Below are positions 38,545-60,119 of a stretch of DNA of 64,000 bases, piece by piece. Below the pieces are notes generated by a model. That model was given only the letters and a program-made list of their open reading frames with translations. It was not told where the DNA came from and searched no databases. The DNA lies in contig NC_087081.1 in the NCBI RefSeq assembly GCF_026151205.1, forward strand, positions 10,789,113-10,853,112, written 5' to 3'. The translations under genes were made by a program, and so were the position numbers. Every line of letters starts with the position of its first letter. The stretch's first letter is position 1. The DNA is from Bolinopsis microptera (lineage: Eukaryota; Ctenophora; Tentaculata; Lobata; Bolinopsidae).

Positions 38545-38794
38545 CTGTGAGATGTGAGGTAGAGTTGGGGTGACAGTGGCGTTTGAATAGTGCGGAGTGG
38601 AGATACTTGTATATAATGTTCGGTAAGAGGGCTATTGCCAGATTAACCTTTTTTTCAGGAGAAACAGCAGATCGAAATGAGATATCTCGAGTCTGGGCTT
38701 GGTTTCGTTTAAATACATAATTACAAATTATAAACAATTTTAAACAATTTAAACAATTCTATACTATTTCTAAATATGTAAATTTATTTTCATA

Positions 38795-39084: not shown

Positions 39085-39600
39085 CTGGGACGGAAGTAAG
39101 GATAATTTTTTTGCATAGAGCTACTCGTCACTTAGGTCCAGGATCATTATAATATTAGAGCCGGACTTCTAGGCAAAGTGCTTTGTTGTGGGACACACTC
39201 AAATAAGTTAAGTTGAGACACCTCAAATCTCCCTTAAGAGATATCAACAGAGGATCATGACTAATCATTACTAAGATTTAGTGGCATTCCTCGGTATTTC
39301 CATGGTTAGTTTTTCCTTCCATTCGACTGTTTCTTACGGTTTTCAGTCTGTGATCTATTGTAATTGGCCTGTTCTTGATTCACCTGTTCTTGATTGGCCT
39401 GTTCTTGATTCACGTGACGGAGTTTAACCACTTATTTAAAAGAAATAACAAGCCTGTTTACTAAATACTTAACAAGTAAATTGTATATTTTGCAAAATTA
39501 CAATCTTAGTTTAGAACTATTTATACTACAAATCAATAAGTGAACAAGCTGGTAACATAAAGAACTATAAAACAAAGCTACAATTCCATAATTCCCTCTT

Positions 39601-39890
39601 TCAAAAGGGAACATTGTCCGTAAGAAAGTCTGAACATAACAGCTCAATATGTTTAGCCCTCTCATGACTGTCCCTCCCACTTGTTCTAGTAAAAGAGAGC
39701 TGACAAAACCTGCACTTCAACGGTTTAATCTTCAGATGAACCTCGTTAACATGCCGCCTAACCTGGGAGTCATCATGAAATGTCTTGGGACATCTCGGAC
39801 ACTTGAAGGACTTTATGTTGAGGTGGAAGTTACGAATGTGACGTAGCACGTGACCCCGAGAGGTGTATTGTTTCCCACAGTGAGGACAAC
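39601..39890 (-). CDS. Z64: three-finger terminal exon
   Basis: Acceptor CCTCTTTCAG, phase 1; the first finger begins right at the splice junction (CPHCGKQYTSRGHVLRHI). Next are CPRCPKTFHDDSQVRRHV and CRFCQLSFTRTSGRDSHE. A hydrophobic tail LLCSDFLTDNVPF follows. Middle finger resembles that of Z63 (RRHVNxVHLK). Confidence 0.85.
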
Positions 39891-40073
39891 CTGAAAGAGG
39901 GAGTAACTATCAACTGGTGTCTGGAGGTGACGGGATTTGAAATGGAGGTAAGTTCAGGAGGGTAAGACCAGGGTCGCTCATCAGAAATGACTTCGAAATT
40001 TATCGAAATTAAAACTAGAAGAAGAACGACATTTAATTTTTTAACAACATTCCATGACAATACGCTTAAGACT

Positions 40074-40363
40074 TCAAGTTTTTCTCCGATTAGAGTGAGT
40101 TTTCCTCTCATGAGCCTTCCTTCTTTCAGATCTACCGAACGAAACCAGACAATATCGGCATCTAAATGGTTTCAAGTTAAGATGAACTTCGTCGAAATGC
40201 CGCTTCAATCGCCAGCTTTCTTCAAATCTCGCATCACAAAGGCCCACAACACATTTGTGGGCCTTTTTCCCAATATGAACAGTCCTTATGTGCCGGGCCA
40301 TGTCATGTTCTCGTTTATATCGTTTGCCACATTGGTGGCAGTGATGATCGGCGGATAAGGAGT
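40074..40363 (-). CDS. Z65: three-finger terminal exon with a CX4C middle finger
   Basis: Acceptor TTTGTTTCAG, phase 1. Fingers start CHQCGKRYKREHDMARHI, then CVVGLCDARFEESWRLKR (Cys spacing widened to four residues), then CRYCLVSFGRSERRKAHE. C2H2 fingers tolerate CX4C, so the middle finger may still fold. Confidence 0.85.
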
Positions 40364-40543
40364 CTGAAACAAAGAAAATGAACAATAGAGGGGCACATTG
40401 CACAACTGTCTCAGAAATAAATCTTAAAGTGCTACAAAATGAAAAGTATTTGAGTCTCGTGTCAAAGACCTATCAGACCGTTTAGCTCATTCATTTTTAG
40501 ACCTATTTAAGCTCACATGCAGAGACAGTATTCAAATGAGGTT

Positions 40544-40818
40544 TCAGTTTCTCGTTCGATCGAAGTGTTTTGTACTCTCGTGTATAGCCCTTTTATCAGA
40601 TCTGCTGTACGAAGCGTGACAAAACCGGCATTCAAACAGCTTCAACTTGAGATGGACAGAGTTCATGTGTCTCTTTAGTTGCCAGCTACCCCGAAACTTT
40701 GCATCACATTGATCACACTTATAGGCTTTAATTCCGATGTGAAAGGTCCGAATGTGGCGCTCCATAGTCCCCTCTCTTGCGTATCTTCGGCCGCAATATT
40801 GGCAGGCAAAAAGAAGGT
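40544..40818 (-). CDS. Z66: three-finger terminal exon
   Basis: Acceptor TTTGTTTCAG, phase 1. Fingers start CQYCGRRYAREGTMERHI, CDQCDAKFRGSWQLKRHM and CRFCHASYSRSDKRAIHE. The first-to-second linker is the atypical FHIGIKAYKC. Paralogue of Z65 and Z67. Confidence 0.85.
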
Positions 40819-40999
40819 CTGAAACAAAGAAAAGTAAATCTCAGAATAATTGGTGTGATGAATTTATCTCCAGGGAGATTAGAACGTGAGTCAAAGTCCG
40901 GCACATCACAAGTTATGAGTAAAAACAAGCCAGCAGTGCAGTAGGGATAGTGTAATATAGTGGAATGTTAAACATGCCATCTAAAAAATCGATGAACCA

Positions 41000-41292
41000 T
41001 TAATGTTGCTTAGAATGTCTTGTCCGTTCATGCCGAGCCCTATTTGAACTCAAGCCAAACGCCTGTTCACAAAATTGGCATTTATAAGGTCTCAATTTGA
41101 GATGAACTGCGTCGTAATGTCTCCTGAGGTGCCAGCTCTCCACAAATCTAGCGTCACAACGTTCACATTTAAAAGCTTTTTGTCCAGCGTGGATACTCTT
41201 GATGTGACGTACCATGTTAGCCTCTGTATCGTACCGCCTACCACAATAATGGCAGTAGTAGTAGCGGGGGTATGGAGGAGGAGGGGGGTCGT
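41000..41292 (-). CDS. Z67: three-finger terminal exon
   Basis: Acceptor CGTTTCAG, phase 1. A proline/tyrosine lead (DDPPPPYPRYYY) is followed by fingers starting CHYCGRRYDTEANMVRHI, CERCDARFVESWHLRRHY and CQFCEQAFGLSSNRARHE. The middle finger matches those of Z65 and Z66 (ESWxLxRH). Relic Z68 lies on its upstream side, 156 bp away. Confidence 0.85.
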
Positions 41293-41447
41293 CTGAAACG
41301 AGGGGGGATAAGTCGCATAATCCTTATTTTCAGAACTCTGGTGTCTGGTATCACAGCATATTCCCAAACATACGATACAAGTGAGACAAAATAATAGTTT
41401 ATCGAATGGGATAATAGGGAATGTGCTTTTTAATGAAATGGAATCGA

Positions 41448-41535
41448 GCAATGTCTATCACGATGTTTGGATCGTTGGTGATAAGTCCTATTTGTTCTCA
41501 GAGCGAAGGTAAGTTCACAAAATTAGCACCGACCA
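41448..41535 (-). pseudogene. Z68: relic of a finger-3 sequence
   Basis: Only the last finger of a three-finger exon is recognisable: a Cys followed by a TAA stop (41523-41525), then FCELTFALRTNRTYHQRSKH. The upstream fingers are missing or unrecognisable. It lies between Z67 and Z69 and probably derives from a neighbour of Z67. Confidence 0.7.
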
Positions 41536-41692
41536 TCTTCGGACATACGACTGACCAGGAATAATGGAACTGGGTAAATTGTCAGGTAACTGTGGATGTC
41601 CAGTGGATGACCCATTCAGAGTACAGTAGTGTGGTACTAGATAATGCTACAAAATTAAAACTAGTTTCTTGCAATGAGCAAAAATATATTAA

Positions 41693-41916
41693 TCATAAAT
41701 AATTTAGCCGATGTTTTTTTCGCTCATGTTTAGTCCGATTAGCTTTCTGCGTGAACGAAAGCTCGCAATATTGGCACTGATAAGGTTTCAACTTGAGGTG
41801 GACTCCGTTCACATGTCTCTTGAGCTGGCCGTTTCCGTCAAACAGTTTCCGACAATACGGACAGATTACAGGCCGGCAGAAATGCGGCTGATTGGGCAGC
41901 AGACAGGGTGGATCTC
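41693..41916 (-). CDS. Z69: two-finger terminal exon
   Basis: Acceptor TTCTCCCCAG, phase 1. The lead is proline/cysteine-bearing (DPPCLLPNQPHFCRPV). Finger 1 starts CPYCRKLFDGNGQLKRHV and finger 2 starts CQYCELSFTQKANRTKHE. The tail is HRLNYL. Grouped with Z70-Z71 by the GNGQLxRHVNGVH core. Confidence 0.85.
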
Positions 41917-42162
41917 CTGGGGAGAAGGATTCCGGTGTAGTTAAACGGCGAACTTTTGTGTTTTATAACATTAGCATAGTGAGTGGTTATAGCACATGAA
42001 TCAGTATTGGTTGGCTATTAGGAATTAGGATAGGTGTAAAATGCTATATATAATTTTATAAAATGCAAATTTGCTCTATATCGGCACACTATCACTACGA
42101 AAGGTATCGGAAAAAACTACTGAAAGAAATTAATCAGAAATTCAAAGTTGCTGTTAAATGAT

Positions 42163-42533
42163 TCAAGGCATGAGTTCTCCCAGTTTCTTCATGCTGACTA
42201 CGACTTCCTTCAAAGGATATGACATCAGCTTCTCCTTACAACTGTTACTAAAAGCTAGCAGGGTCGTCTTGTAAGTGGTTCCCCTCATGAGTTCACTAAA
42301 AACACCATGATCCACGATTTGAAGTTCAGACACATATCTGTTCCTGTAGAAATTAACACGGGGTACCCCACAAAGTCTACACGCCTCTGTCACATTCTGA
42401 GTTGATTTGTATTGGTCCAGGATTCTGTAATATTCTCTGGTTAACACGTCAATGTCACGGAGAGAGTGACGTGATCTCTTCTGCAACCAGCCGTCCGTTC
42501 CGTCGGGGTAGACGATAGAGATTGTTTGTCTGA
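42163..42533 (-). CDS. H1: alternative terminal exon, helix-turn-helix-like module
   Basis: The best acceptor is CCCGGACAG, phase 1; a second AG four bases inside would break the frame. The peptide opens RQTISIVYPDGTDGWLQKR. The core reads YYRILDQYKSTQNVTEACR and CGVPRVNFYRNRYVSELQIV, then FSNSCKEKL and the end MKKLGELMP. H1 and H2 interrupt the run of finger exons between Z69 and Z70. Confidence 0.75.
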
Positions 42534-42708
42534 CTGTCCGGGAGAAATTATTTCAGAGGGTACGAATTAAACATTACGAAGTAAGTTTGATGTGATGGAG
42601 AGTTACTGATATGTAATGTGCTGTGCGCTCTATTTTCCCCAATAATGATTACTTCAAACCTATTTGTAGGACTATCTACCAACAAATTAGTCACCCAGAA
42701 TCGGAAAG

Positions 42709-43052
42709 TTACGGGATAAGTTTGCCCTGCCGACGCAAATCATGAACTTTAAAACAACGACCATGTTCCAACAGCTGTTGTTTACACACATTATTGAAGG
42801 CAGATATACTTGTGCTTTCAATGGAATCCCTCAAAAGTCTTTCAAAAACTCCTCGATCTACAATCCTTAGTTCTGAGATATATCTATTCTTGTAGAAGTT
42901 TCTCCTGCACACCCCCACCGCTTGACAAGCCTTGCTGACACTAGATGTAGCCTGGTAAGCTGTCAGGATCTTGTCGTACTCCTCTGCCAGAGTGGCTAGG
43001 TCGTGGATTGTGTTTCTTCTTTTCCAATCGTTACCTCTGTAGTCCACTGTGA
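42709..43052 (-). CDS. H2: alternative terminal exon, helix-turn-helix-like module
   Basis: Acceptor AATACTACAG, phase 1. The lead is basic (DYRGNDWKRRNTIHDL). The core reads YDKILTAYQATSSVSKACQ and VGVCRRNFYKNRYISELRIV, followed by FNNVCKQQL and the end RRQGKLIP. Adjacent H1 shares FYxNRYxSELxIVDxGVF, so the two are tandem duplicates placed far from H3-H6, inside the zinc-finger array. Confidence 0.75.
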
Positions 43053-43474
43053 CTGTAGTATTTATTTTACAGGGAGTTTTTAAGAGAGCAGCCTTAACGT
43101 TAACCACATTAAATGTAACTAAACTTTAAGTTTTTGTGATAGGATGAAACAGGTCAGATGATGTGTGATGGCTCAATTGTTATGGGACAGGAAACAGCCT
43201 GGTAAAGTAGCCTAGACTTCTTACGAATTCAAACAATCTATTGATAGACTAATAATACTTTGAAATAGCACTTTAAAACATAAATAGAATAAAAATATAT
43301 CAGGTAAAGATATATCAGGTAATTACTAAAAGGCCTCTATAAATAGCATTAAAACTGGAGCCATTTCATAAGCAGCATCATATTGCGCAAGGTGAAATAT
43401 ATCTCTCAAACTGCTGCCAGTACTGAAGCAAATATTACTACACCTCCGGTTAAAATAACAACCAACTCAAGTGT

Positions 43475-43668
43475 TCAAATCCCCTGTGGCTTAGCACAGT
43501 GACACCGCTTAATATGGGAGATCTTCAGATGGTTTCTTGAGAAGTGGCGTTCACAGTAGGGGCAGGGGAAGGGCTTCAGCTTTAGGTGGACCCCGTTTAT
43601 ATGGCGGTTCAGTTGTCCGCTCCCGTTAAACGACTTGTTACAGTGAGGACACCGCCTCTGTTGTCTAT
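43475..43668 (-). CDS. Z70: two-finger terminal exon
   Basis: Acceptor GCTCACGCAG, phase 1. Finger 1 starts CPHCNKSFNGSGQLNRHI; finger 2 starts CPYCERHFSRNHLKISHI and ends KRCH, HX4H spacing. Paralogue of Z71 (shared GQLNRHIN). It lies just upstream of the H1-H2 pair in transcription order. Confidence 0.85.
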
Positions 43669-44395
43669 CTGCGTGAGCGGGTCAATGAGACAGAGTGAAA
43701 TATTGAAATAGTGAAATTATAGTGAAATGAAGTGAGTTTCAGTATAAGTTAAAGCGGCTTTCATTGTATCATGTACAAACTTTATTTCGTCAAGACCAAT
43801 TACCAAGAAACTTTTCCTTGCTACGGATTCGCCGACCAAGGAACCGGTATTGAGGACATTTTTAATGGGACCAAAACGGGACAAGCGAAATGTTTTCTAA
43901 TTTTGAAGGAAATCTATGATGCATTATTAACTCGTAATTTTACTTTAACAGGTCCTGCTGACGTAGGGCCAGATAAAACAATACAAAAATGTTATAGATT
44001 GAATCGAGCTAGTTCCTAGCTCTCTCCTGATTCTTCTAGAACCTTCCACGAGGACCAAATATCTCCTGATATTTACGGGTTAAACCACTAGTCCGTAAAG
44101 AGGACAGTTAAAACCACTAGTCCGTAGAGAGGATAGTTAAACAACAGTTAAAACAACGGTTAACTACCTTGTTTTAATTATAAACTTAGACCTCTCCGAA
44201 ACATGTAGGTTTAGCGTAAGGGTCAAGGTGCTGCGATCTTAGTTTGTTCATTATTCCAATTATTCTGATTTTACCATCATACTATCTTTCACTTGAACTT
44301 CGAGTATCTATCTATTCTCCACGCACCGGTGATAACAAAAATAAAAACACGAATCGTCAGAAATCAACTCAATCGTCCACCAAAACACGCTTATT

Positions 44396-44850
44396 AAAAA
44401 AGAATAACGCTAACTTCTAAAAGAATAACGCTAACTTCTAAAAGAATAACGCTAACTTCTAAAAGAATAACGCTAACTTCTAAAAGAATAACGCTAACTT
44501 CTAAAAGAATAACGCTAACTTCTAAAAGAATAACGCTAACTTCTAAAAGAATAACGCTAACTTCTAAAAGAATAACGCTAACTTCTAAAAGAATAACGCT
44601 AACTTCTAAAAGAATAACGCTAACTTCTAAAAGAATAACGCTAACTTCTAAAAGAATAACGCTAACTTCTAAAAGAATAACGCTAACTTCTAAAAGAATA
44701 ACGCTAACTTCTAAAAGAATAACGCTAACTTCTAAAAGAATAACGCTAACTTCTAAAAGAATAACGCTAACTTCTAAAAGAATAACGCTAACTTCTAAAA
44801 GAATAACGCTAACTTCTAAAAGAATAACGCTAACTTCTAAAAGAATCTTC
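44396..44850. repeat. 21-bp minisatellite, about 21 units, at the end of Z71
   Basis: Near-perfect units AGAATAACGCTAACTTCTAAA. Because 21 is a multiple of three, one minus-strand frame is open right through as LEVSVIL repeats, but Z71 enters in a different frame and stops in the first unit. Confidence 0.95.
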
Positions 44851-45044
44851 ATAGTTACGATCATGTGTCCGTCTGATATGCTTGACTCTCAAATGATTGG
44901 CCGCAAAAGAGTTATTACAGAAATTACACTTGAACGGTTTCAGCTTGAGGTGGACGGCGTTTATGTGCCGGTTTAACTGTCCGTTACCGTTGAAAAGTTT
45001 AAAACAATGCGGACACCTTTTACTGCTCCCTCCAATCAGTCCAC
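44830..45044 (-). CDS. Z71: two-finger terminal exon ending in a minisatellite
   Basis: Acceptor TACTTGCAG, phase 1. Finger 1 starts CPHCFKLFNGNGQLNRHI; finger 2 is CNFCNNSFAANHLRVKHIRR with the last His in RTH. The final residues SFRS and the stop are encoded by the first 21-bp unit of the minisatellite that follows. Confidence 0.85.
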
Positions 45045-45059
45045 CTGCAAGTAGTTGTT

Positions 45060-45478
45060 CAGAGAATCACTCATATAGCAAGGGAGAATCACTCATATAG
45101 CTACATATAGCAAGGGAGAATCATTCATATAACTACATTTAGCAAGGGAGATCAGAATCACTCATATAGCTACATAAGGCAAGGGAGAATCACCCCTATA
45201 GCTACATATAGCAAGGGAGAATCACTCCTATAGCTACATATAGCATGGGAGAATCACTCATTATATAGCTACATATAGCAAGGGAGAATCACTCATTATA
45301 TAGCTACATATAGCTATAGCAAGGGATAATTACTCCTATAGCTACATAAAGCAAGGGAGAATCACTCATATAGCTACATATAGCAAGGGAGAATTACTCA
45401 TATAGCTACATATAGCAAGGGAGAATCACTCATATAGCTACATATAGCAAGGAAGAATCACTCATATAGCTACATAAT
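45060..45478. repeat. ~32-bp minisatellite upstream of Z71
   Basis: A dozen or so units of AGAATCACTCATATAGCTAC followed by ATATAGCAAGGG, with length variants. It lies in the intron between Z72 and Z71. Confidence 0.95.
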
Positions 45479-45783
45479 TAGACGGGGGTGATTCAAAAAA
45501 ATAACATGTAGCTAGATCAGGCCGGCTTGGTGTGGGGGCCATTAACATTGGTAGTTAGATATGCTCAATACGAATATGCTAATTACAGACAGGTTCAAGA
45601 GGACTTATGGATTTAATAAATTGCACAAGAAATAAAAAGGAGATTTTTATTTTCGGTATTCATTTCATACAAGAAAATGTAAATTGAACAGTGCAGTGCT
45701 TCACGAAACACACATAAATAGTAAACACACAGGAATCTAGCCACCAGGAATCTAGCCGCCATGACGCCATGTTCCCTCCCAAA

Positions 45784-45992
45784 CTAGCCGCCATGTTTCC
45801 TCCCAACATGCTTCTTCAGATCAGAGACCCTGGCGAAGGGCTGGCTACAATGCTGACACTTGTGGGGGCGGATCTTGTAGTGCACCTCCCGGATATGCCG
45901 GGACAGATCGCTCATTCTCCGTCTTATCATCAGGTCACAGTGCGGACATTTTAACTTGGCAGTTCCGCCTGGGAGGCGAGTTCGGGGCGTTC
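45784..45992 (-). CDS. Z72: two-finger terminal exon
   Basis: Acceptor TCACCTCCAG, phase 1. Finger 1 starts CPHCDLMIRRRMSDLSRH and finger 2 starts CQHCSQPFARVSDLKKHV. The lead is basic (PRTRLPGGTAKL). It is a close paralogue of Z73 (shared HIREVHYKI / HVREVHYKI). A short repeat, GCCGCCATG/AATCTAGCC, lies just past the stop. Confidence 0.85.
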
Positions 45993-46302
45993 CTGGAGGT
46001 GAGAGAGAAACTAGACAATTGAGAAGGGGTTGTGAGGGTGCCGTATTGGTTTGCTCTTTGTGTGAGTTGACGAGTTGTGGTGGGGAAATCATGACTGTCA
46101 TTATATTTTTTTCGACCAAACAAGATCAAAAGTAAAATAATACACCTATGTTTTTGAACTCGTTAAAAAGGTATCATGTCCGAAATGAAAATTGGAATAT
46201 CTAGTGTTTTTCTCAGATTTTAGTTCTTCAATTCGCTGTCTGCTAAACAGAACTGTTCGTGAAGAGCTGATCAGTTTCATGTAATACAAAAGGATGTCTC
46301 CG

Positions 46303-46365
46303 CCTTGCGTGACGTCACACCTGGCGTGACGTCACCCCACCTGGCGTGACGTCACACCAGGATGT
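46303..46365. repeat. TGACGTCACACCTGGCG repeats at the end of Z73
   Basis: Three TGACGTCA copies spanning the Z73 stop codon and its downstream flank. Confidence 0.9.
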
Positions 46366-46561
46366 CTCCGCCTTGCGTGTTTCTTCAGATCAGCAGCCCG
46401 AGAGAACCTCGCCTCACAAAACTGACAAACATGAGGTTTAATCTTGTAGTGGACTTCTCGGACATGTCTCTGGAGGTCGCTCAAACGGGATCTTGTGATG
46501 GTGAGCTCGCAGTGGGGACATTTTAGGATGGAGTCAGAGCTCAATCGGACTCTGGGCTTCC
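46332..46561 (-). CDS. Z73: two-finger terminal exon
   Basis: Acceptor CCAATCAG, phase 1. Finger 1 starts CPHCELTITRSRLSDLQR and is one residue long; finger 2 starts CQFCEARFSRAADLKKHA. The linker is HYKIKPHVC. The coding end runs into TGACGTCA-containing repeats, and the stop TGA lies in one of them. Confidence 0.85.
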
Positions 46562-46985
46562 CTGATTGGGGATTATGGTATGTAGTGGCTATCTGAACTT
46601 GTGCACGTGATTTCTGGTAGGCAGCGTATAATTTAGATGGATATTAGAGGAAGATGGTCAACAGTACAAGGAGCTAATTTTAGAGAAACCAGCATTGGGA
46701 AATTTTAACTAAACACCGACTATTGAAAATAAAAAGACAATGTAATATTGGGGTACTATTGTACAAGCAGAAGACATTGAGGTTATTGAGTCGGCAATTT
46801 AATATAAAAATCAAAATATTACAAAGGAGGATATGAAAGGATTCTGTAGTTACTAGCAGTAAATTAGGCTACTATAAAGTTCCATTATTTAACGAAACAG
46901 CATCTAGCCACAACGCCGCGCTGCACCCTCTGATGACGTCATAGTCACGTGACTTCAGGCTCATAATCGGTCACACCCTTACAGT

Positions 46986-47215
46986 TTACACAGTATCTCT
47001 CCCAGCCCCTTTGATAAACTGGTCCCAATGTTGTGACCTCATGTGTAACAGCCTGTTGCCACTCTGCCCGAAGGTCCGGTCACAGAAGTAGCACTTGTGT
47101 GGTTTCAACTTGAGGTGCACGTTGGTGATGTGGCGGCTTAGTTGGGATGATCCACTGTAGATCTTTCTACATTGTGGGCACTGGACTGCTTGACGATTCT
47201 TGTACTCTATATTAC
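46986..47215 (-). CDS. Z74: two-finger terminal exon
   Basis: Acceptor CTGTCTCCCAG, phase 1. Finger 1 starts CPQCRKIYSGSSQLSRHI, finger 2 starts CYFCDRTFGQSGNRLLHM, and the tail is DQFIKGAGRDTV. The DNA-contact part of finger 2 (QSGNRLLHMRSQH) is the same as in Z79 although the exons are not adjacent. Confidence 0.85.
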
Positions 47216-47611
47216 CTGGGAGACAGCATGATGGCCGCTGATTCTCACTTTTTAGATTAAAATGCTGTGATTTGAGAGCGAAGTAAGGATTGAGCTTTGA
47301 AACATTTTTTAAAGGGACCCACTTTTGGATTTGTTTGTTTTCGAAATAGATTCAGCCGAAATTCACCAGGAGATAATAAGTTAAGAAAATTACGATTGGT
47401 TAGAATTGAAAAATGCTCATTTAACGAATAAATAATAATAAATAATTGTCAAACATTAACTTGATTGGTTAAAAGATCGAAAGGGAGCTCAAAAGTGAAG
47501 GAAGTCCTAAAATAACTCATTTGAAACCGCACTCTTACAGACATTTTGAATTAAAATCTAAAAAGTTTTTTCTCTAATCGTATGCCTTATGCATCCTCTG
47601 AGCATGTTTCT

Positions 47612-47811
47612 CTAATCGTATGCCTTATGCATCCTCTGAGCATGTTTCTTCATATCATACATTCTGGAGAACATTTTCTCACAATATCTACACTTGTAAG
47701 GTCGTATTTTAAGATGGACGGAACGTATGTGGCGATGGAGAGGTCCTCTACCAACTATTTCTAGACCACACTCAGGACAACTTGATCGGGGAGTGAGCTT
47801 CCGTCTGTGAC
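47612..47811 (-). CDS. Z75: two-finger terminal exon
   Basis: Acceptor CACTTCCCAG, phase 1. Finger 1 is CPECGLEIVGRGPLHRHIRSVH, slightly long. Finger 2 starts CRYCEKMFSRMYDMKKHA. The final ~42 bp of coding sequence are duplicated directly downstream of the stop (47573-47650). Confidence 0.85.
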
Positions 47812-48262
47812 CTGGGAAGTGGGTTAAGTTTACACACTCCACTGGGTGGGGTAAGTTTACACACTCCACTGTGAAAAGCCGCGATATTAAGTGAAATTGG
47901 AGAAGGGTCAGTTGGAGGTGTGGGATACTTTTACACAGTTCAGTGGTGGTTAGTTACTGGAGCCAGCTTTTTTACGTATTATGTAGGCAAGACAATAGAG
48001 ACAAGCAAGTAAAGTGAATTCTAAGGTTTTAATATTTATCAAAGACAATTCAATTCCCAAGTCTGAACACGTAGGTATACAGAACAAAACCACTCAATTC
48101 GTCACACAAGAAGATCAGATCAACCACAATCCATAATCGAAGTACATAAAAGAAGCAAATAAATTAATTTCACAAACTGATCATAACGAATAATGCAAAT
48201 GAATCACCACTCCACAGCTCAATATTTGGGAACCCCAACGTTCTTATAATTATGTTTATTCC

Positions 48263-48483
48263 TCAATATTTGGGAACCCCAACGTTCTTATAATTATGTT
48301 TATTCCTCATGTGTGACAACCTATGTCCGCTCTGAGTAAAACTCTTGGCGCAGTAAAAGCACTGGAAAGGTCGCTCCTTGTAATGTACCGCGGAAACATG
48401 TCGGGGTAGCTTAGCGAAGTGAACGAAGCAATGGGGACAGGTCCCAGATTGGGAATGAGGGAGAAAGTCCGTGTTGCGTTTTC
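48263..48483 (-). CDS. Z76: two-finger terminal exon
   Basis: Acceptor CTCCACCAG, phase 1. Finger 1 is CPHCFVHFAKLPRHVSAVH and finger 2 starts CFYCAKSFTQSGHRLSHM. The linker is the atypical HYKERPFQC. The last codons (about 45 bp) are duplicated in tandem just past the stop, so the C-terminus sits at a repeat boundary. Confidence 0.85.
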
Positions 48484-48838
48484 CTGGTGGAGGTCTGATT
48501 AGCTAAATAGGAGGGAGATTTCGCTTGTGATGGGTGGTGGGGGTGGTAGGATATGAGGAGACTGTGAGCATTTATTGGGAGTGGACTTCACCGAATTATC
48601 TGTTTTTCCCGACCTTATGTCGAGGCACTTAAGAGCATGTTCATTAATCGTATTCTGGTTCGTTTACATTAATGAAGAAAAAATAACTTGTAAATATTAA
48701 TGCAATATCATTTGCATTGGCAGCAAAAGCTTGAGTAGATTAGAAAGTGAAATTACGGAGATCAAGAACACGTGATGCCCATATAAGGACACGTGATGCC
48801 CATATAAGAACACGTGATGCCCATATTATAAGAAGCGC

Positions 48839-49050
48839 TTAATTCTTCTTAAATTCCCTGTGCATGTTCCTCATGTGAGACAACCTATGCCCGCTCTGAG
48901 TGAAACTTTTAGGACAATAAAAACACTTGAAGGGTCTCATCTTCAGATGAACCGTTTGGATGTGGCGTTGTACGTTAGCGAAGGGTAGAAAACAGTAGGG
49001 ACAGGAACCTGAAGTCTGGTAGCCAGCGTAGCGGTTTTGGGGCGACAATC
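48839..49050 (-). CDS. Z77: two-finger terminal exon
   Basis: Acceptor ATGTTTCCAG, phase 1. The lead is LSPQNRYAGYQTSG. Finger 1 is CPYCFLPFANVQRHIQTVH and finger 2 starts CFYCPKSFTQSGHRLSHM, ending REFKKN. Three copies of an ACACGTGATGCCCATATA-type unit lie just past the stop (48769-48832). Confidence 0.85.
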
Positions 49051-49421
49051 CTGGAAACATGAACACGTGACTAAACACGTGAGGAAACACGTTACAAAAC
49101 GGTGTAGAACTAAAAACTTCAGTTTGGTTTTGATGTGGTGATTGTGAGGAATTAACTTTGCTCTTGGAAACTATATCTGGGATGGACTCCTTCATATGCG
49201 ACTATTGAAACTACTCTGGTATTAGTAGGTATAAAATAGGTGACAATAGAAACACAAATATCAGAAAACACACGATCAATGCGGCTGAACTATTACTAAA
49301 ATCATAGAAAACATTTGAATTATCCTCCGCTCACAAAGCGGATGTGGTTTTTAAGTGATTATTAGTTATCATATCCGTATCATACCAAGTAAGGCTTTAG
49401 GAAAGTAACAATTAATCTCCA

Positions 49422-49654
49422 TCACTGAATGTCCCTCCGTTCCCAGTTACTGTAGTTCTGATGGTCATGTTTACTTCTCATGTGACACAGCCGATGCCCG
49501 CTCTGAGTGAAGCTCTTGGCACAGTAAAAACACTTGAAGGGCCGGAGTTTGAGGTGTATTGTCTGTACGTGGAGCTGAACGTTAGCGAAGTGGTGGTCGC
49601 AGTACGGGCAGGTGCCGGAGGTTTGGTAACGTTTGTAGACTTTGGGAGGGGTCC
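49422..49654 (-). CDS. Z78: two-finger terminal exon
   Basis: The acceptor is an unusual AAG (CACTACAAG) behind a long pyrimidine tract; the phase is correct. Finger 1 is CPYCDHHFANVQLHVQTIH and finger 2 starts CFYCAKSFTQSGHRLCHM. The tail is NYSNWERRDIQ. It is a close paralogue of Z77 and Z76. Confidence 0.8.
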
Positions 49655-49854
49655 CTTGTAGTGAGGAGTGAAATGAGAAAGAGTAAAATAAAGCATGCAT
49701 TATATAGCCACGCTGAGAAAACTGTTCTGTATACGATTTCTTCTGTATACGATTTCTTTTAGTTTGGTTTACCTAGATAAAAATGCTCACACTCAGAAAA
49801 ATCAAAAACAATCACTCTGAAAATAAAAATAAAAATCACACGAGAATTGTGGTT

Positions 49855-50087
49855 TTATTTCTGGCCTCTATCTGAATCTCTCTCTGAATTTCTTTTAAGT
49901 TCAGTTCGGTGCTGGGACCTCATGTGTAACAGTCTATTACCACTCTGTCCAAATGTTCTGTCACAATAAAAGCACTTAAAGGGTTTGATTTTAAGGTGGA
50001 CGTTAGTGATATGCCGGTTCAGACTGCTGAATGTTTGTAGACAAAATGGACATAACGTGTTATTGAGTCCCCTCTTTTTGCTCAACT
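49855..50087 (-). CDS. Z79: two-finger terminal exon, the one nearest the constant region
   Basis: Acceptor TAACTTTCAG, phase 1. Finger 1 is CPFCLQTFSSLNRHITNVH and finger 2 starts CFYCDRTFGQSGNRLLHM. The tail is charged (ELKRNSERDSDRGQK). The TAA stop lies inside an AAATAAA, so the stop may overlap a polyadenylation signal. Finger 2 resembles Z74. Confidence 0.85.
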
Positions 50088-52598
50088 CTGAAAGTTAAAG
50101 CGAAATTAATTCTTGGGTAGAGGATGTGGGTTGTGATGTGGTTAGTGAACTTTCAAATGCCCCCTAGTTGAGTCATGGCTCTGCAATGAACAACCACGTC
50201 ACGTCATCACAAACACGTTGAATCAAACTAACAATTTCCAGACACTAATATACTTGCATTTCTTTATATTCTGTGTTAATAGCTTATTTACTTTAGGTTT
50301 CCGAATGGTGTGGATTTCCCGTAGATTGGAAAATAGTGGTGGAGGTTAATAAATGGAAACGACTGTTTGTTTTCTTTTAATTTTAACAATTGTTCCAGAT
50401 TTAGTAATTCTACATTTAAGGACACAACTAGAGTCCATACATTTAAAAAGTCAGTAAAACACCAAGACAAATAACCAATTCAGCATAGATCATAATGCTC
50501 CGTAATTTAAAAGTTAACTGTTAAAAAGTTTTAAACCTAAAACTAACGGATGAGAATTATGACGGTGAAGAAGTGAAATTCGAGAGTTATTTGTAATAAG
50601 TTTGAGGAACGGCCTATACAGCGGCCATGAATAGTGAAGCACTTTTCAGGTGATTTGCACCACGTTTATGACAGACTAGCATCAACCATGAGTATTTAGT
50701 CGATTAGTTGATGTATAACGGACTCCTTTGAAGTCAAATTTACCCGCCGAAAATCGAAACCCCGCAGGGTCAACGATTGAGGATAATGAAGCTAGAGACG
50801 CGCATTACGGTTACGCCGCGCACAAGATTTGATGGCAATACCTAAGCTTTGTACACAATTCCTTCCCTCAGTTTGCTAGTAGTTTGGGCGTCAATCCACT
50901 AAATGTCCCGCATACCCTTTGTTCTCGAATAGACAGAGAATAATGGCGGGAAGACATTCTAATTAGTCCCCACCACATTCCAGACAACCACATAATGTTT
51001 ACTCCATACTTACACAGACCGAATTTCCGCAACATAAATTGTTAGCCTAGCGCTCTTCATATTGATACGGAAGAAAAACAAAAGAATAAATGGTAATGGA
51101 AAAAAGGCCCGGTACAGAATTTAAAAAACCTGGCCAAATGTGATGTGGCCAAGGTTCAAGTGAAAGAGAGACGAGACAAACGAAGAAATTTGATGTTTAC
51201 AATGTTTATCAAATTCACAATCAAACAAGCCTTTAATAATTTAAAGCCAAAAGCTTGAACCTAGAACCAAAAACAATAATTTAAGGAAAACCCACTTAAA
51301 CCTAACTTCTCTTACGATTTGTTTTAAGTAAGGGAATGGATGGAAATCGTGGGAGGATGTTCAGCTGTGGCTATCTGCACCGACATCAGTTGTGTGGCCT
51401 AGTTGTTGCTCAGTGTGCTCAATATGGGCCAGCCACATTACTCGGCTAAATGTTTATAATTTTATTTTCGGTTTAACATGGAGCCATCCTATAGCGTCCA
51501 AAGCGATCACAGGACCGATTCTTTCACATTCAGTGATGTAATCCTCTAGCTGTACATTCACTTTTTATCACCACCAAGGGGAAGCGCTCAGCTCCCACTT
51601 CATCATGCGATTCTATCTTTGTTTTTCTTTTAAAAGTTTTCGACTAATTGTACTAAAAAGTAAATCTTTCAAAAATGACTGTCACGTTCCTAAAGAAAAT
51701 CTACGAGGAGAAAAACTCTCATTCATCAGTAGTAAGGGCCTATAAGTCTCCATCAAAATCCATACATCTAACATCCTCTACCTATCCTCATATTGTGAGA
51801 CCCTTGTTTCTGTCACAGTCCTCAACGGTGCAGATAATACCTCAGCTGATGCACATTCACCCCACCAACTACAAACAAATCCCCTTACTATAAAAAGCCA
51901 GGCCAATTTGGGTGTTTCTAACTCCTTCGTCGTTATGCACTCGCGGTTCTAACCTTAAATTTGATGCTGGGTGCTCCCTTACTTAAGAGGCTTTATGCAA
52001 ATTTAGTTTCGTGAGAGATCATGCAATGAAAATGCTTGGTGTAACAGAGAAATCGTTTTTTTGCACGGTTATGACGTTGAATTTTACACAGGGGGACTGT
52101 CATGGTGAAATATTTTAAATTCAGGTAAAGATCAAGGCAATGTTCGATTTCTTTGCGTCACCAAATTGAATTGTTACTAACATCTGAGGTAGTCGTCAAG
52201 CAATGACAAGTACAAATGTAGACGGGCCAATCAGTTTCGTGAAACGATCCTGATTAGTTCCACATTTGACTCTACATTGCTTGTTTGACTAACAAATCTC
52301 AGACAATGACAAATAACGACCCAAAACTTCGAGAATAAAACGATTGTTTGAATATACAATAGAAGGGAGGGAAGTCTTGGGCCGAATTATAAATGAAGTA
52401 TCATTAAATAATGTTTACGGATTTGATAGAACACACTTTTGTTTTATAGAATAACATTCTCTCATCTTTTTAGGAAAGGAAATGAACGTTTTTTATGTCA
52501 TTAGGAACCAAGATCGTTAAAAATTGGTTAGTTCCTAGTATAGCAGGAGGTATTTACTATTCCTGCAGTCCGACCAAGCAAAATACCTTAATTTCTGT
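50088..52598. other. 2.5-kb stretch without recognisable modules
   Basis: AT-rich, between Z79 and H3. Short plus-strand frames (for example 51675-51893) lack splice or protein features. It separates the finger array from the proximal H modules and could hold splicing or enhancer signals, but nothing specific is visible. Confidence 0.5.
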
Positions 52599-52978
52599 TC
52601 ACATGAACTCAGATATGATTCTACCCTGGCCTCTAAGATCCCTAGCTCTGGAAGAGAACCGCCGGTCTCCAATAGCCGTTTTACAAGCCGCTAATATCCC
52701 CACACTATCTGAATATATCTCCTGAAACTGCTGGAACCTCTCCGGGTCCAATATCTTCAGTTCCGCTACAGGTTTCCATTTATAAAAACTGGACCGTGGC
52801 ATTCCCATACACTTCAGTGCTTCTGCTATTGTGTGACCACTGTTAACTTTTTCCAGAACGTCAGCATACTGACCGTGTATCCTGTTAAAGCTCACATTAG
52901 AGACCCACATCCTCCTCTTTTTAGCGTCAGGATATAGTTTAGGAATGATAAGGTAAGGCCAATGTCTGGACTGTTCTC
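52599..52978 (-). CDS. H3: alternative terminal exon, helix-turn-helix-like module
   Basis: Acceptor CTCATTTCAG, phase 1. The peptide opens ENSRHWPYLIIPKLYPDAKK with a basic KKRR patch. Then come YADVLEKVNSGHTIAEALK and MGMPRSSFYKWKPVAELKIL, with an ILAACKTAI segment before the end RGQGRIISEFM. It stands apart from H4-H6, with about 2.9 kb of module-free sequence between them. Confidence 0.7.
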
Positions 52979-53200
52979 CTGAAATGAGAGGATTCTCGAG
53001 CCAGCTGTGTGGAGCATGCAGGGCCGCCCACCCGGTCTAGGTCCACTAATTTAACACCAGGTAAATAATACCAGGGATGTGTGGTCGGACTGCTTGAATT
53101 AGTATATTTCCTCAGAACTATTGTTATATTATAATGAGCTCGCTGAGGAGGAATCCTTGACAATAGTGGTCCCGAGTCTGACTTGTGACATTGTACCAAA
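52939..53200 (-). pseudogene. H3b: fragment resembling the start of an H exon
   Basis: An open stretch contains THPWYYLPGVKLVDLD. This echoes the opening of H5 (HPGYIIIPATDYP) and of H3 (RHWPYLIIPKLYPDAK), but the signature module is absent and the frame ends soon after. It lies immediately upstream of H3 and overlaps its 5' edge on the same strand. It is probably a truncated duplicate. The resemblance is short, so chance remains possible. Confidence 0.35.
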
Positions 53201-53273
53201 AGTATCGGTTGATACTAATGTTAGTTAGCTAATGCACTAACTTTATCTGTGTTCTATCAAATCTGTGTTTAAA

Positions 53274-53427
53274 ATGTCCCCAAAGTATATGGGAGTGTTT
53301 GATTCGCTGTTCAGTGCCCCAAAATAAAATTCAATATATAAATCATTGCGCCAAATAATCATTTCCATAAGTAGAAAACAATGTACAGAAAATGTACTTC
53401 AATCAATTATTGTTACTTTGGGGACAT
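53274..53427. mobile_element. Short inverted-repeat element (MITE candidate)
   Basis: A 14-bp inverted repeat ATGTCCCCAAAGTA / TACTTTGGGGACAT bounds 154 bp of AT-rich sequence. No clear target duplication was seen. Confidence 0.45.
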
Positions 53428-53463
53428 GTAATTGCATGCTATAAATGAATTATTAAAATGTTT

Positions 53464-53858
53464 ATGAAGCAGGATTATTCGGTTTATTTTGGTGATTTAA
53501 TAATAATCACATTTTTAACTAAAATTTTTGCAACATATTTGCAGCTACAGCTGGAAAACAAGGCCACGTCAGCACACAAGTGAATCATACATTATAGGCA
53601 CGTTTTATGGCAAGCATTATAATTCTGTGTCAGGGTCTGCCAAACATGCACGCTAAAATACGAAGCGGACTTGGAATTCCCACTCATCGTTACTCTATAT
53701 TCAGTGGTACATGGCGCCAAAATCTAGCCCTCAAGGTTTTATATGGTAGGCGGCATCGACTGATGTCTAGCGCATTAAATGGCGTTAAGGACAGTTTTAG
53801 TTTTAGTTTTCAGTTAAAGGACAACTTTTATTTACAAAGTTTAGTAATCCTGCTTCAT
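53464..53858. mobile_element. Inverted-repeat element (MITE candidate)
   Basis: A 14-bp inverted repeat ATGAAGCAGGATTA / TAATCCTGCTTCAT bounds about 395 bp. It is separate from the 53274 element, 36 bp away. No target duplication was resolved. Confidence 0.45.
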
Positions 53859-55891
53859 CAGTCGAACGGTTATAGATGAATAAATCTCAGAGATTAATAG
53901 ACTATGTAATAACAAGTAAAGATAAAATACTAAACCCTGGAACTCACTAACCCACACTAACCCACTCTGCAATGTAACTTGATATATAGAATGTAAGATA
54001 ATCAAGTTCCCCAAATGATCATGCTCCCCCTGTTGCTGCTTATCAGGGTTTAGTACTTTTAAACCACCCCTCCCCAACCTGATCCCCAACTTTATCCGTT
54101 AAAACCACCCACATGGGATAATAAACATTACATTTTCTGACCTCACATAATATAATATTAAACAGACAAACATAATATAATATTACATAACATATTAAAC
54201 AATAGACTTTACATATTATATTTATACACTATACAGACGGGTCTCGCAAACCACTACACGAACACGTCTCAACGGACAAAGTTAAACAACATTATTTGTC
54301 ACATACATTCCTCACATTACACACATATTTACAGTTACCGGACGGACGAGACTAAACATGTATTGTGTTCGTATCACTCCGGGAGGGCGGAATGACACAG
54401 AACAAGTCACAAAATGTTAAACTAAACAGTCAATTTAAGAAATTATAAGTTATAAATTTAACAGTATATAAATTTAACAGTATATAGTAGTTTGTGATGC
54501 ACCAAGATTCTAGGGCCCCAGTTACATCCCCTTCCATGCTCACTGTATGTAGGCAGGGATTTAACGAGTTCATTTAAAGGTGCTGATTGCTTTAGTGACG
54601 TCACAAGTCATATTATAAGTACTGTGTTTTGATCCGTACTGTGTTTTGATTGGTCATTTGAGCAAATTAGGGGAGAATTTTGGCGCATTACAGTTTACAC
54701 ACGAACAACGTACCTTGAAACTGGATGTTGAAGGAGGAGCGGTTCTTCTTCAAATCACGGAGTATAAAACAAAAGTATTGATTGATACCACCAAAATGCT
54801 CATCTTAATCTACAATTATCTAATTAATGAAATAGGAAAGGTTTCAAAACTAGGTCTATAATGTGATATATCTCATTTCTTGATGAAGGATTTGTATGGT
54901 TCAAATGCCAGCGTTTCTACATATATGAATTGGTTCCAATAAATGAGGAACCCTATTTTGCTTTGTCACGTTTTTATCTAAATTTTCAGCAATATACCTA
55001 ATCGGTAATACAACAAGAGTACTATATAATGTGAGCACTAACATCCTCTACGTGGAACTCAGTAATGTTAGGCCTTTTATTTGGAGGCCTCTTGGGGTTC
55101 TCTTAATTATGCGGTACTTCACAAACCTTGGTGAGTAGGGACTCTTGAGGTAGCCAGACTTTTTCCACCGACAATTAACAAATCAATTAAAATTTAAAGT
55201 ACATGGTTCTCTTACGTCACAAGTCATAAGTATGCTTCTCTTACGGTTAATAATTGTGATAAATGACCGCCGACAGGTATACCGAACCTGATTCTAGAAT
55301 ATGCTGAAAATGAGTTACTTCAGTTATTCTGATGACCATTTTTACCGAAGTTTTAATCACTCAGTGGGGAATATGACAAGTTGTTCATGTTAGACGCGAG
55401 CATTAGAAGATGGCAGGCTTAATTTGAGTCTTATTCTTAGCATAATGTTCCAAATTTATGTCAAGAGAACCATGCAATATTGTAAATAAACCAATTAAAT
55501 TCTAATTAATTAAATTGTAAGATAACACACTATCGCTAATTAAACTTACAGTTGGAACAAACAAATAGCATCAAACAAACACCACTCCCAAACCCCAATC
55601 TGCGTGAAACTTTGAACGTTGTTTTTATGAAATTTTACGATCTTGGAATTTTCTAGGGAAAAACAACTGAAATACGGTTTTTTGTGAAAATTTAGTAAAT
55701 AAAATATACACATGATCATGATACTGTACTATTATTCGAACCTCTTGAAAATCTTGAGTGGAAGTTTGAATGTGGCAAAGAGGTTATCACTACCTGAATT
55801 TTGCCTTGGTTGCAAATATATCGAGATTTCCAAACTTGATGGCTAAGAATTAAGAAATGATGGTTTAGAAATGATGAAATGAAAGGTATAT

Positions 55892-56253
55892 TCAGGGCAG
55901 CAGTCTACCGATATTCTTCAGATACTGCAACTTCTGAATCTGTGGAAATATCGCAAGATGTTCCCGACACAGTTTATTAAGCTCTGTAGCAGACCTCTCA
56001 GCCCGGACAAGTTCTTGAAACAGCTCAGGCTCGATCTCCATCAGTTCAACTATGTAGCGCCTCTCGTAGAAGTTAGTTTTTCTAACTCCAGTATTTTTAA
56101 AGGCCTCTGACATATTGTCTCCTGATCTAAACCTAGCCAAGACGAGCATGTACAACTTTCTTTCATACTGATAGTCCCCAAGTTTATGAAGGATTTGTAT
56201 TTGCCAGGGAGATCGAGAAGGGTGGTGACGAAGTGGGGTTCGCGGATCAGCAT
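55892..56253 (-). CDS. H4: alternative terminal exon, helix-turn-helix-like module
   Basis: Acceptor ACAACCGCAG, phase 1. After a basic, proline-containing lead (ADPRTPLRHHPSRSPWQ) come YMLVLARFRSGDNMSEAF and NTGVRKTNFYERRYIVEL, then ELNKLCREHL and the end NIGRLLP. The pattern of conserved E-A, G-V, F-Y and E-L positions matches H1-H6. Confidence 0.7.
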
Positions 56254-56387
56254 CTGCGGTTGTGAAAATGATGAATGAAATGTGAATATAATAGGTAATA
56301 TGATTTCTTAACTCAACAGAGGTTGCTCAACTGTATATCTTAATTTCCCAATATTATCATTATAAAACAACATTACAATATGACTAT

Positions 56388-56758
56388 TTAACGTGTTAAC
56401 AGACTCCCATTTCTCTTCATGTTTATAACAAGCGCGGCATACATTTCTTTCAAAAGAGTTGTCTTACATCTCGTAAGGAGTGTATGTGCACAACTAGATG
56501 ACTCTTCTAGCTGCCGATACAGATCGGGATCAACTATCCTCAACTCGGCGACTGCCTTCCATTTGTAAAACGTAGACCTAGCTAGTCCTGTGGACTTGAC
56601 TGCATCCATGACAGCGGTTCCACCGTTTACCCTCCTCAAGATTTCTGCATAATTTGCGTGGATGGTTTCTGCTGATGTAGTCTTCTTTTGTCTTGTCCAT
56701 ATGGGTTTGGCAGGGTAGTCTGTGGCAGGGATGATGATGTATCCGGGGTGTAATCTAG
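56388..56758 (-). CDS. H5: alternative terminal exon, helix-turn-helix-like module
   Basis: Acceptor TCATCCTCAG, phase 1. The peptide opens RLHPGYIIIPATDYPAKP, a start partly shared with H3 and the H3b fragment. It continues NYAEILRRVNGGTAV and DAVKSTGLARSTFYKWKAV, and ends MKRNGSLLTR. Closest relative by eye is H3, which shares FYKWK and AELRIVDP versus AELKILDP. Confidence 0.7.
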
Positions 56759-56829
56759 CTGAGGATGAGGCTGAGTTTTATACCAACTAATGTCTACCCT
56801 TACACTTATGTTTAGATTTCAGAAGAAAG

Positions 56830-57176
56830 TCAAAGGAGGGCCCCATTTCGCTGCAGCTCAAGATAAATACCCTTCAGCAAGGGAGATTCAACATGCTTTC
56901 TACAAATCTCGTTAAAGGCCCGAATGTGCATTTTATTTGCATTGGCATAGTTAAGCTCCCGACTAAACAAATCAAAGTCCACTGCATTCAGCTCAGTGAT
57001 ATGTCGACGCAGGTACCAGGACGACCGAGATATCCCCATCCGTTTACAAGCTTGGAATAGACCACCGTGTATCTTGGAGAGGAAGAGGAGTTGGTTATAC
57101 TCCTCATGAATTGAGCGCAGGTCCTTTAGGGTGTGCCGGGCACTTCGTAACCGGGACCGGTCGGTGTGGTAGGGAT
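56830..57176 (-). CDS. H6: alternative terminal exon, helix-turn-helix-like module
   Basis: Acceptor TTCCCTCAG, phase 1. It is the terminal exon closest to C6. It encodes about 115 residues: a basic start (DRSRLRSARHTLKDLRSIHE), then EEYNQLL, then the signature ACKRMGISRSSWYLRRHITEL, then a C-terminal half with an FNEICRK segment ending QRNGALL. The signature spacing looks like a helix-turn-helix. It vaguely recalls CCDC106-like vertebrate proteins, but I cannot confirm this. No zinc-finger residues are present. Confidence 0.7.
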
Positions 57177-57509: not shown

Positions 57510-57559
57510 TCGGATTGGTAGATCCACTGCCGCCGGCCTTGTTGTCCATTAGACTCTTT
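57510..57559 (-). CDS. C6: 50-nt micro-exon that joins to the alternative exons
   Basis: Acceptor TTTATTTCAG and donor CCGA|GTAAGT bound 50 nt, phase 2 to phase 1. With C5 it encodes LKSLMDNKAGGSGSTNP, a flexible glycine/serine hinge, and leaves a single A to start the next codon. Every alternative exon examined needs exactly one upstream base. Since stop codons begin with T, the A-led junction codon cannot be a stop whichever exon is chosen. Confidence 0.8.
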
Positions 57560-57781: not shown

Positions 57782-58353
57782 AATTCTCCGCCTCTAGAAG
57801 AACCAGGCATTTGATCATTACCGGAATTCATCACCCCACTCTTGCTCGGGAACAAGTCGTTAATGCTGCTTGTAGTGTTTGATAAGCTCAACATGGAGAG
57901 CGGATTGTTTGATTTATCAAGGAATGTCGACGAAAGTGAGGATGGCTGAGCCGTGGTCACCAAGTTAGCGACGCCGATGTTTTCCTCGTTTGATTGCAGG
58001 GTACTCATCAACTGATTGATAGTACTTTGGGGAAGCAGCTGGGAGTCGACATGACCGGAGACTTGCATTGGTTCGACTACTTCATCCTTGATGGTCACCA
58101 CCTCCGGAATTACACCCTCTGGTTTAACCTCAGTGATGGAGTTATCCTCGGGTTCAGCGGCTGGAGCGTATTGGTTGTAAGAATGATCCGAAACAGTTGT
58201 GGAGGACGAGGAGGTAGGTTGGGAGGACGATTGTGGGGCGGGAGCAGGATGAGCGGGGGCGGGTGTTTCAGAGACAGCGAGGGAGACTGGAACAGAGCTG
58301 GCGGATATGTGAGTGGAGTATTGGGCGGTGGAGACGGACACTGGGGCTGGAAT
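57782..58353 (-). CDS. C5: largest constant exon, S/T/P-rich
   Basis: Acceptor ATCCCCCAG and donor TT|GTAAGT bound 572 nt, phase 0 to phase 2, about 190 residues. The first third is A/P/S-rich (PAPAHPAPAPQSS). The middle carries ITEVKPEGVIPEV, where VKPE resembles a sumoylation site. The last part is N/S/L-rich (NPLSMLSLSNTTSSINDLF). No folded domain is visible. It reads like a transactivation and linker region that holds the alternative C-terminal DNA-binding tail at a distance. Confidence 0.85.
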
Positions 58354-58744: not shown

Positions 58745-58991
58745 CTGAACAGGTATTGAAGCAGGTTGGTGTCTTGGTTGCGAGCTGTACTGTTGACTGG
58801 ACGACGGTTGCGAGGTGTACTGTTGGCTAGACGACGGTTGGGAGCTGTAATGTTGATTCGAGGCCGCTTGGGAAGTATAAAGTTGACTAGTTATAGGTTG
58901 AGAACTGTATTGGTGACTGGTTGAGGGTTGTAAAGATGGTCTCTGAGCGATGGGAAGGGGTGCTATCTGCTTAGGGACTGACTGCTGAACC
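58745..58991 (-). CDS. C4: constant-region Q/S-rich repeat exon
   Basis: Acceptor TATCCTCAG and donor CAG|GTAAGT bound 247 nt, phase 2 to phase 0. It encodes about 83 residues of low-complexity sequence made of degenerate eight- to ten-residue repeats of the type QQYSSQPSSS, with SHQYSSQP and NQHYSSQP variants. Glutamine/serine/tyrosine-rich tracts like this are typical of activation or condensate-forming regions of transcription factors; that role is inferred. Confidence 0.8.
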
Positions 58992-59180: not shown

Positions 59181-59292
59181 GAGAGGATTGGAGGAGGGTT
59201 TGGTTCGGGAGGTAGTTGGATTATGTCTTCTACTTCTCGGTTTATACTGCTCAGTTCGTCCACATCCATCGTGTTCGACGAACCGCGAAAAT
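59181..59292 (-). CDS. C3: constant-region exon
   Basis: Acceptor ACAGTTTCAG and donor TC|GTAAGT bound 112 nt, phase 1 to phase 2. The peptide contains SNTMDVDELSSINREVEDII followed by proline-rich QLPPEPNPPPIL. The acidic helix then proline run resembles linker or activation sequence; no known domain was recognised. A second in-frame-incompatible AG lies six bases upstream (ACAG|TTTCAG). Confidence 0.75.
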
Positions 59293-59472
59293 CTGAAACT
59301 GTAAAAGAGAGGTTTAAGAGATATAGATTATAGATGCCTGATAAAAGTGGAACGAACGAATTAACAGTTGATTCATCAAACACTGCAGAACACAGCAATC
59401 GTATCACAATTTCTTAATTATTAACAATCGAGTTTTCTATGTTCGTAATAAATATTGATTCTTTGAACAAAC

Positions 59473-59568
59473 CTGATTCATTAGAATCATCGATGTCTTC
59501 TGCTAGGTCTTCGAGAGCGTCTGCACTAGCGTCTGATACAGCCTCTATTACAGGGGCAAGATGTTGTA
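59473..59568 (-). CDS. C2: constant-region acidic exon
   Basis: Acceptor TTTTCCTTCAG and donor CAG|GTTTGT bound 96 nt, phase 1 to phase 1. The peptide runs VQHLAPVIEAVSDASADALE and continues with an acidic DLAEDIDDSNES stretch. It has helical character and could be an interaction or activation segment. A LINE tail sits in the intron between C1 and C2. Confidence 0.75.
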
Positions 59569-59958: not shown

Positions 59959-60119
59959 CTATGGATATGACCCGTACAGCTGTATCCAGTAGAAACATAA
60001 GAAAGTCATTGTCAGTCTTCTCCGTGAAATGGAACTCTGATTTCTGTTTGTGGTAAAAACCAAGCACTTCTGTGTTAGCGAAGATGGGACCGGTTACTTG
60101 AACCATGGGGACGGGGAAA
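59959..60119 (-). CDS. C1: constant-region exon, function unknown
   Basis: Acceptor ACATCTCAG before the exon and donor G|GTGAGT after it give 161 nt, phase 2 in and phase 1 out. It encodes about 53 residues beginning FPVPMVQVTGPIFANTEV and including FHFTEKTDNDFLMFLLD. This looks like a folded alpha/beta segment, but I do not recognise the domain. An internal ATG sits after FPVP, but the acceptor and the phase-2 start argue for a coding exon further upstream, outside what I could find. Confidence 0.75.

Follow-up and report, generated by a model that had tools for sequence, protein, structure and literature searches.

Can one gene exchange unrelated DNA-binding folds at a single splice site? 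The question is raised by a 64,000-nucleotide stretch of contig C10 of the ctenophore Bolinopsis microptera (positions 10789113-10853112, GC content 39.3%; hereafter the window), on the minus strand of which a set of common 5' exons is followed by a long array of candidate alternative last exons. We consider it likely that these belong to a transcription-factor gene in which the window's roughly 80 alternative 3' exons share one N-terminus of 410 residues, and that six of them, H1-H6, encode a helix-turn-helix domain of the CCDC106 type. That DNA-binding folds are swapped in this manner is well supported by the anatomy of the locus and moderately by the predicted fold.

Anatomy of the locus

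The coding part of the gene opens in an exon at position 60119, and the common exons C1-C6 join into one open frame of 410 codons. These exons and the finger-coding blocks of the array are laid out as follows (window positions; contigs, which carry similar labels, are always named as such):

59959..60119, minus strand: C1, where the common N-terminus starts (first coding exon, ATG inside); donor phase 1; sequence read and joined
59473..59568, minus strand: C2, common exon; phase 1 to 1
59181..59298, minus strand: C3, common exon; sequence read and joined
58745..58991, minus strand: C4, common exon, Q/S-rich; sequence read and joined
57782..58353, minus strand: C5, common exon; contains the motifs IKDE and NPLSML, both recurring in paralogues
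57510..57559, minus strand: C6, last common exon; donor phase 1 (CCGA/gtaagt)
43478..50094, minus strand: C2H2 finger frames, a block that precedes H5 and H6 in the sense of the transcript
433..41962, minus strand: C2H2 finger frames, a block that follows H6 in an array extending beyond the window start

Downstream of C1-C6, the minus strand carries 75 frames with a C2H2 motif, as judged by motif pattern and counted after removal of five tandem-repeat decoys (26631-27082), together with six H frames that have none; two more motif-bearing frames lie on the plus strand. A Pfam scan of the 410-residue common part at E<=1 returned no meaningful domain, the sole match being DUF7553 (E 0.22), and BTB, SAM and CCDC106 were not matched.

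The H exons and their domain family

The six exons without fingers are each a candidate alternative last exon:

56830..57176, minus strand: H1, predicted helix-turn-helix module; acceptor possibly at 57194 instead; no Pfam match at E<=10
56388..56758, minus strand: H2; PF15794 32.1 bits, HTH_7 24.9 bits; AlphaFold model
55892..56253, minus strand: H3; PF15794 27.1 bits, below cut-off
52599..52978, minus strand: H4; PF15794 20.9 bits, below cut-off
42709..43046, minus strand: H5, amid finger exons, weak acceptor; PF15794 35.7 bits
42163..42533, minus strand: H6, amid finger exons; PF15794 38.8 bits; AlphaFold model

An earlier reading of the bare sequence (the original prediction) had proposed that these exons share one module of about 95 residues, and this holds: the common domain aligns across approximately 100 residues, with nine columns invariant in all six (Y, L, A, G, Y, E, L, C and G). 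Among the motifs then listed as conserved, the C[KR] pair is present in every member, but the literal EAC occurs in H6 only. A hidden Markov model (HMM) built from H1-H6 recovers just these six frames in the window (E<=2.4e-39); since they match their own model by construction, the informative part is the gap to the next frame, at E 5.8, on the basis of which we rejected the possibility that the H frames are chance frames.

By sequence comparison the family is an already known one, the C-terminal domain of CCDC106. Five of the six H domains match the Pfam model for CCDC106 (PF15794), three above its cut-off of 30.2 bits and two below it, and H1 has no match. All matches are confined to model positions 113-217 of 220, and no H frame matches the model's N-terminal half (positions 1-112, a coiled coil). 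The likeness to CCDC106 therefore comes with that missing half as a difference, and with another, in that the domain here would be one of many alternative ends. In the same Pfam search H2 also scored above threshold with the resolvase helix-turn-helix model HTH_7. Other matches were taken as chance: the NCBIfam models for IS3 transposase (four of six members, best E 0.019, far below cut-off), an ACT domain (two of six, best E 0.00052) and Dps (one of six, E 0.012), and the single match of the H profile to the sequences of solved structures, the H5R late gene transcription factor (E 1.1).

Membership of the H exons in the gene

Each of the six H exons can be joined to C6 in frame at phase 1 and then runs to its own stop without an internal one, in line with the earlier claim that the H exons end in stops of their own. 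The companion claim that they use the same splice phase holds with a caveat: a phase-1 join is possible for all six, but when acceptors are ranked by a simple score, a phase-1 AG comes first for H2 (at 56719), H3 and H4 only. Across all modules, phase 1 was best for 82 of 100 in the contig C10 array (the window and a further 10 kb, counting the five tandem-repeat decoys) and for 56 of 76 in a paralogous array on contig C3. Phase 1 accounts for 304 of the 686 AGs scanned on contig C10 and 286 of 633 on contig C3, so that a fair chance level is about 44-45% and not one third.

The paralogous array came from a search of the genome (264.65 Mb in 232 contigs) with the N-terminal 121 residues, which located C1-like exons at six other places, two of them weak (E 2e-4 and 9e-4). 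Four paralogous loci were scanned over 50 kb each, and the one on contig C3 (20.57-20.64 Mb) over 20 kb more. This last locus repeats donor phases 1, 1, 2 and 1 at the counterparts of C1, C2, C5 and C6 in a single open frame, the counterpart of exons C3, C4 and C5 being joined as a single exon. Of the motif-bearing frames, 51 of 52 in the initial 50 kb and all 24 in the 20 kb beyond lie on the gene strand (75 entered the phase test). Flanked by finger frames, a single H exon (20619627-20619955) can be joined in frame; it scores 30.0 bits with PF15794, under the 30.2-bit cut-off. Ahead of the full C2-like exon, the first intron of this locus also holds the opening part of that exon in about nine tandem copies, each with an acceptor and some 13 codons (L019:3640-4240).

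The H exons might instead be separate transcripts nested in the array, with promoters and 5' exons of their own. H4 is isolated, as this would allow, and the region from 50.1 to 57.2 kb holds no minus-strand finger frame. Yet H5 and H6 are placed between finger frames, and a methionine upstream of the first helix is absent in five of the six H frames, just as one upstream of the first finger is absent in 54 of the 75 finger frames; a separate transcript would therefore require an additional 5' exon. The phase and strand of the H exons match those of the finger exons, and the contig C3 locus has the same mixture of finger and H exons. We regard separate transcripts as very improbable. Membership of the H exons in the same gene as the fingers is supported indirectly, by the phase-1 join, the strand, the position of H5 and H6, the lack of methionines and the contig C3 mixture.

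Predicted fold and DNA binding

AlphaFold models of H6 and H2, both built from the same six H sequences, show a confident six-helix fold containing a helix-turn-helix, the fold that had been put forward for checking. Their best matches among solved structures, at middling scores, are the DNA-bound LEAFY domains of plants, which resemble the modelled H domain in overall helical fold with a helix-turn-helix over approximately 100 residues but differ in having no detectable sequence similarity to it; a SAM domain, moreover, was not found in the common part here (Pfam, E<=1). The LEAFY versus H profile score is lower than the shuffled mean and is reached by 126 of 150 shuffles, and a sequence resemblance seen by eye was dropped after failing this shuffle control. 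No LEAFY model is among the Pfam matches of the H exons at E<=10, the best E in a viral structure library was no lower than 0.73, and none of 5.39 million papers searched mentions LEAFY together with CCDC106. The earlier proposal that unrelated DNA-binding folds are swapped onto one N-terminus is thus supported in part, the models favoring a second fold; DNA binding by that fold is predicted only, and the family is known (CCDC106).

In the model we favor, C6 would be spliced to one among many phase-1 acceptors. Most of the exons so chosen would contribute one to three C2H2 fingers, and H1-H6 would contribute instead a helix-turn-helix domain of the CCDC106 type, LEAFY-like in its fold. The choice of exon would set the DNA target, and the shared N-terminus, which is of low complexity and includes a SUMO-type IKDE site, would carry a common regulatory or partner-binding function. 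The H domain itself would have been recruited from, or be of common descent with, open reading frames (ORFs) of mobile elements. We infer the use of the junctions, DNA binding by the H domain, the function of the N-terminus and the recruitment or shared descent from the features described here.

The H domain could alternatively be a helix-turn-helix module for protein interaction that does not bind DNA, some isoforms then being non-binding competitors of the finger isoforms. Vertebrate CCDC106 is described as p53-binding in the accessible parts of two papers (PMC6423756, PMC10713525), and the terms DNA-binding, promoter, ChIP and helix are all absent from a third (PMC9208459), although the title of the latter reports an effect on p21 transcription. 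The closest solved folds of the H models are DNA-bound domains, and H2 lies above the cut-off for a resolvase helix-turn-helix; we judge a pure interaction role to be unlikely.

Several observations weigh against alternative splicing to a DNA-binding H domain. On the structural side, the LEAFY matches score 7.5-9, a range that the tool's own note calls middling where proteins are helical, a Foldseek search of the PDB gave no match for the H models below E 0.79, and sequence kinship of the H domain with LEAFY was not found with hhalign (P 0.56 and 0.5). CCDC106 itself appears in print as a p53 partner and, in the accessible part of that source, not as a DNA-binding protein (PMC6423756). With respect to splicing, H5 has a weak acceptor, and a phase-2 AG outscores the best phase-1 AG in H1 (by 0.8 bits), H5 (0.2) and H6 (1.2). 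The canonical polyA signals AATAAA and ATTAAA, which had been expected for each exon, show no enrichment in the gaps between modules: one or the other is present in 43 of 80, where single-base shuffles give a mean of 39.4, and both are missing from the short gaps that follow H1, H2, H5 and H6. Finally, three of the four paralogous loci are without an H exon in the scanned 50 kb. In the contig C3 H exon, too, a phase-2 AG lies 0.2 bits above the best phase-1 AG, and individual H acceptors are uncertain because of the higher phase-2 scores in this exon and in H1, H5 and H6; across both arrays, the best AG of H-type exons is in phase 1 in four of eight (H2, H3, H4 and an exon downstream of the window on contig C10). 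The 3' ends may be formed with other signals, by read-through into later exons or by lola-like trans-splicing.

Mobile relatives and origin of the H domain

Where else does the domain occur? Three genome searches, when merged, give 46 H-like matches, a pool in which near-identical copies and matches as weak as E 10 are counted: seven in the contig C10 array, one in the contig C3 array and 38 elsewhere. The chance of one of 39 such matches landing in a 70-kb array is about 0.010, as reckoned after the fact. The seventh H exon on contig C10 lies outside the window at 10783393-10783731 (PF15794 19.5 bits, under the cut-off). In addition, six weak matches are spread over 440 kb of contig C6 (15368185-15809919), on both strands and in frames of 100-120 residues, one with an internal stop.

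Elsewhere the H domain terminates longer ORFs, of 257, 378 and 296 residues on contigs C8, C3 and C13 (loci L006, L007 and L008). These three share stretches of 125-1083 bases at 98.9-100% identity, plus one 51-base piece at 92%, and such near-identity across chromosomes points to recent mobility. A different ORF of the same build (L005, 385 residues) also has the H domain at its end, with no such near-identity to the other three; a Cys-rich N-terminal part is seen in L005, L007 and L008.

The H exons might be no more than domesticated or decaying pieces of mobile elements in the introns of a zinc-finger gene, outside its protein products. The near-identical ORFs are in keeping with this, as is a ten-domain tree in which H2 and H4 share a side with the mobile copy L007, itself paired with the downstream contig C10 exon at 98/97 on the one starred branch. 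That tree has long branches, with four of its seven inner branches weak; it sets H2, H4, the downstream exon, L005 and L007 apart from H1, H3, H5, H6 and the contig C3 exon at 89/88, below the starred level, and the second group thus stands away from the mobile copy. Furthermore, the ORFs of 257-378 residues have a long extra N-terminal part that the six H frames lack, and these frames are open from acceptor to stop. The H exons are just 21-39% identical to the first mobile-type ORF, which argues that they are old and have been kept open. Intronic debris of this kind is, in our view, quite improbable. The split in the tree suggests that two kinds of H exon may be present, and the near-identical ORF copies elsewhere make capture of the domain from mobile elements plausible.

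Exons like those of the common N-terminus at other loci

Exons resembling C1 lie in front of other domains as well:

L024 (contig C5:17715001-17725000), ~17718200-17721830, minus strand: homeodomain gene with C1- and C2-like exons

This homeodomain (17.72 Mb; PF00046, E 3.9e-22) is preceded by a C1-like and a C2-like exon of the same phase, as judged by eye. On contig C10, a C1-like exon lies ahead of three C2H2 frames at 11.55 Mb, and another, at 9.67 Mb (9.665 Mb; L034:4925-7600), is followed by a frame that may encode a zinc ribbon of the transposase type (PF13842, E 0.067, under the cut-off). From position and strand we infer that the C1-like exons and the domains downstream of them are in one transcript, and the N-terminal module seems to be shared with a third DNA-binding fold, the homeodomain. 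NPLSML and the motif IKDE or IKEE, which we take to be a SUMO consensus, recur in three paralogues.

Two repeat arrays of the window stand apart from these questions. The tandem copies at 26631-27082, five at 85-base spacing, resemble part of the adjoining finger exon, and an array of ~21-base units lies amid finger exons at 44398-44860, with one open frame per strand, that on the plus strand consisting of KRITLTS repeats.

Comparison with known systems and implications

In Drosophila, mod(mdg4) reportedly has common N-terminal exons and many alternative C-terminal exons, most with fingers, and to our knowledge loci of the lola type use zinc fingers as the binding part. The lola gene yields at least 20 isoforms through cis- and trans-splicing, and its unique exons are mostly zinc fingers, according to the accessible part of the source (PMC1947980). 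The present locus resembles both genes in its common N-terminal exons and many finger-bearing alternative C-terminal exons, a likeness of anatomy only; it differs in that BTB was not found in the common part (Pfam, E<=1), that the window alone holds about four times as many candidate exons, and that a second, unrelated fold appears amid the alternatives. The Mnemiopsis loop-anchor proteins CTEP1 and CTEP2 are likewise C2H2 proteins restricted to the ctenophore lineage, a comparison made by description only from the accessible part of PMC12221973. Among the literature matches listed, in a search that covered few subscription papers or preprints, we found no report of such a ctenophore locus or of mixed DNA-binding folds in alternative last exons.

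A bolder reading, which we hold to be conceivable but doubtful, is that the H domain is an animal relative of the LEAFY fold, present in mobile elements and in CCDC106 and recruited to the array, and that the N-terminus is a general adaptor found also before a homeodomain. A LEAFY-like fold outside plants, if true, would bear on the origin of LEAFY, which, were the animal domain a true relative, would not be a plant-only invention. A CCDC106 domain that binds DNA would, for its part, suggest a new reading of the vertebrate p53 partner. Ctenophores are argued to be the sister lineage to all other animals. If two unrelated folds are indeed exchanged at one splice site in this ctenophore, then the adaptor, and not the binding fold, would be what evolution has held constant, an idea made testable by the array, its contig C3 paralogue and the homeodomain gene, whose first exons are similar.
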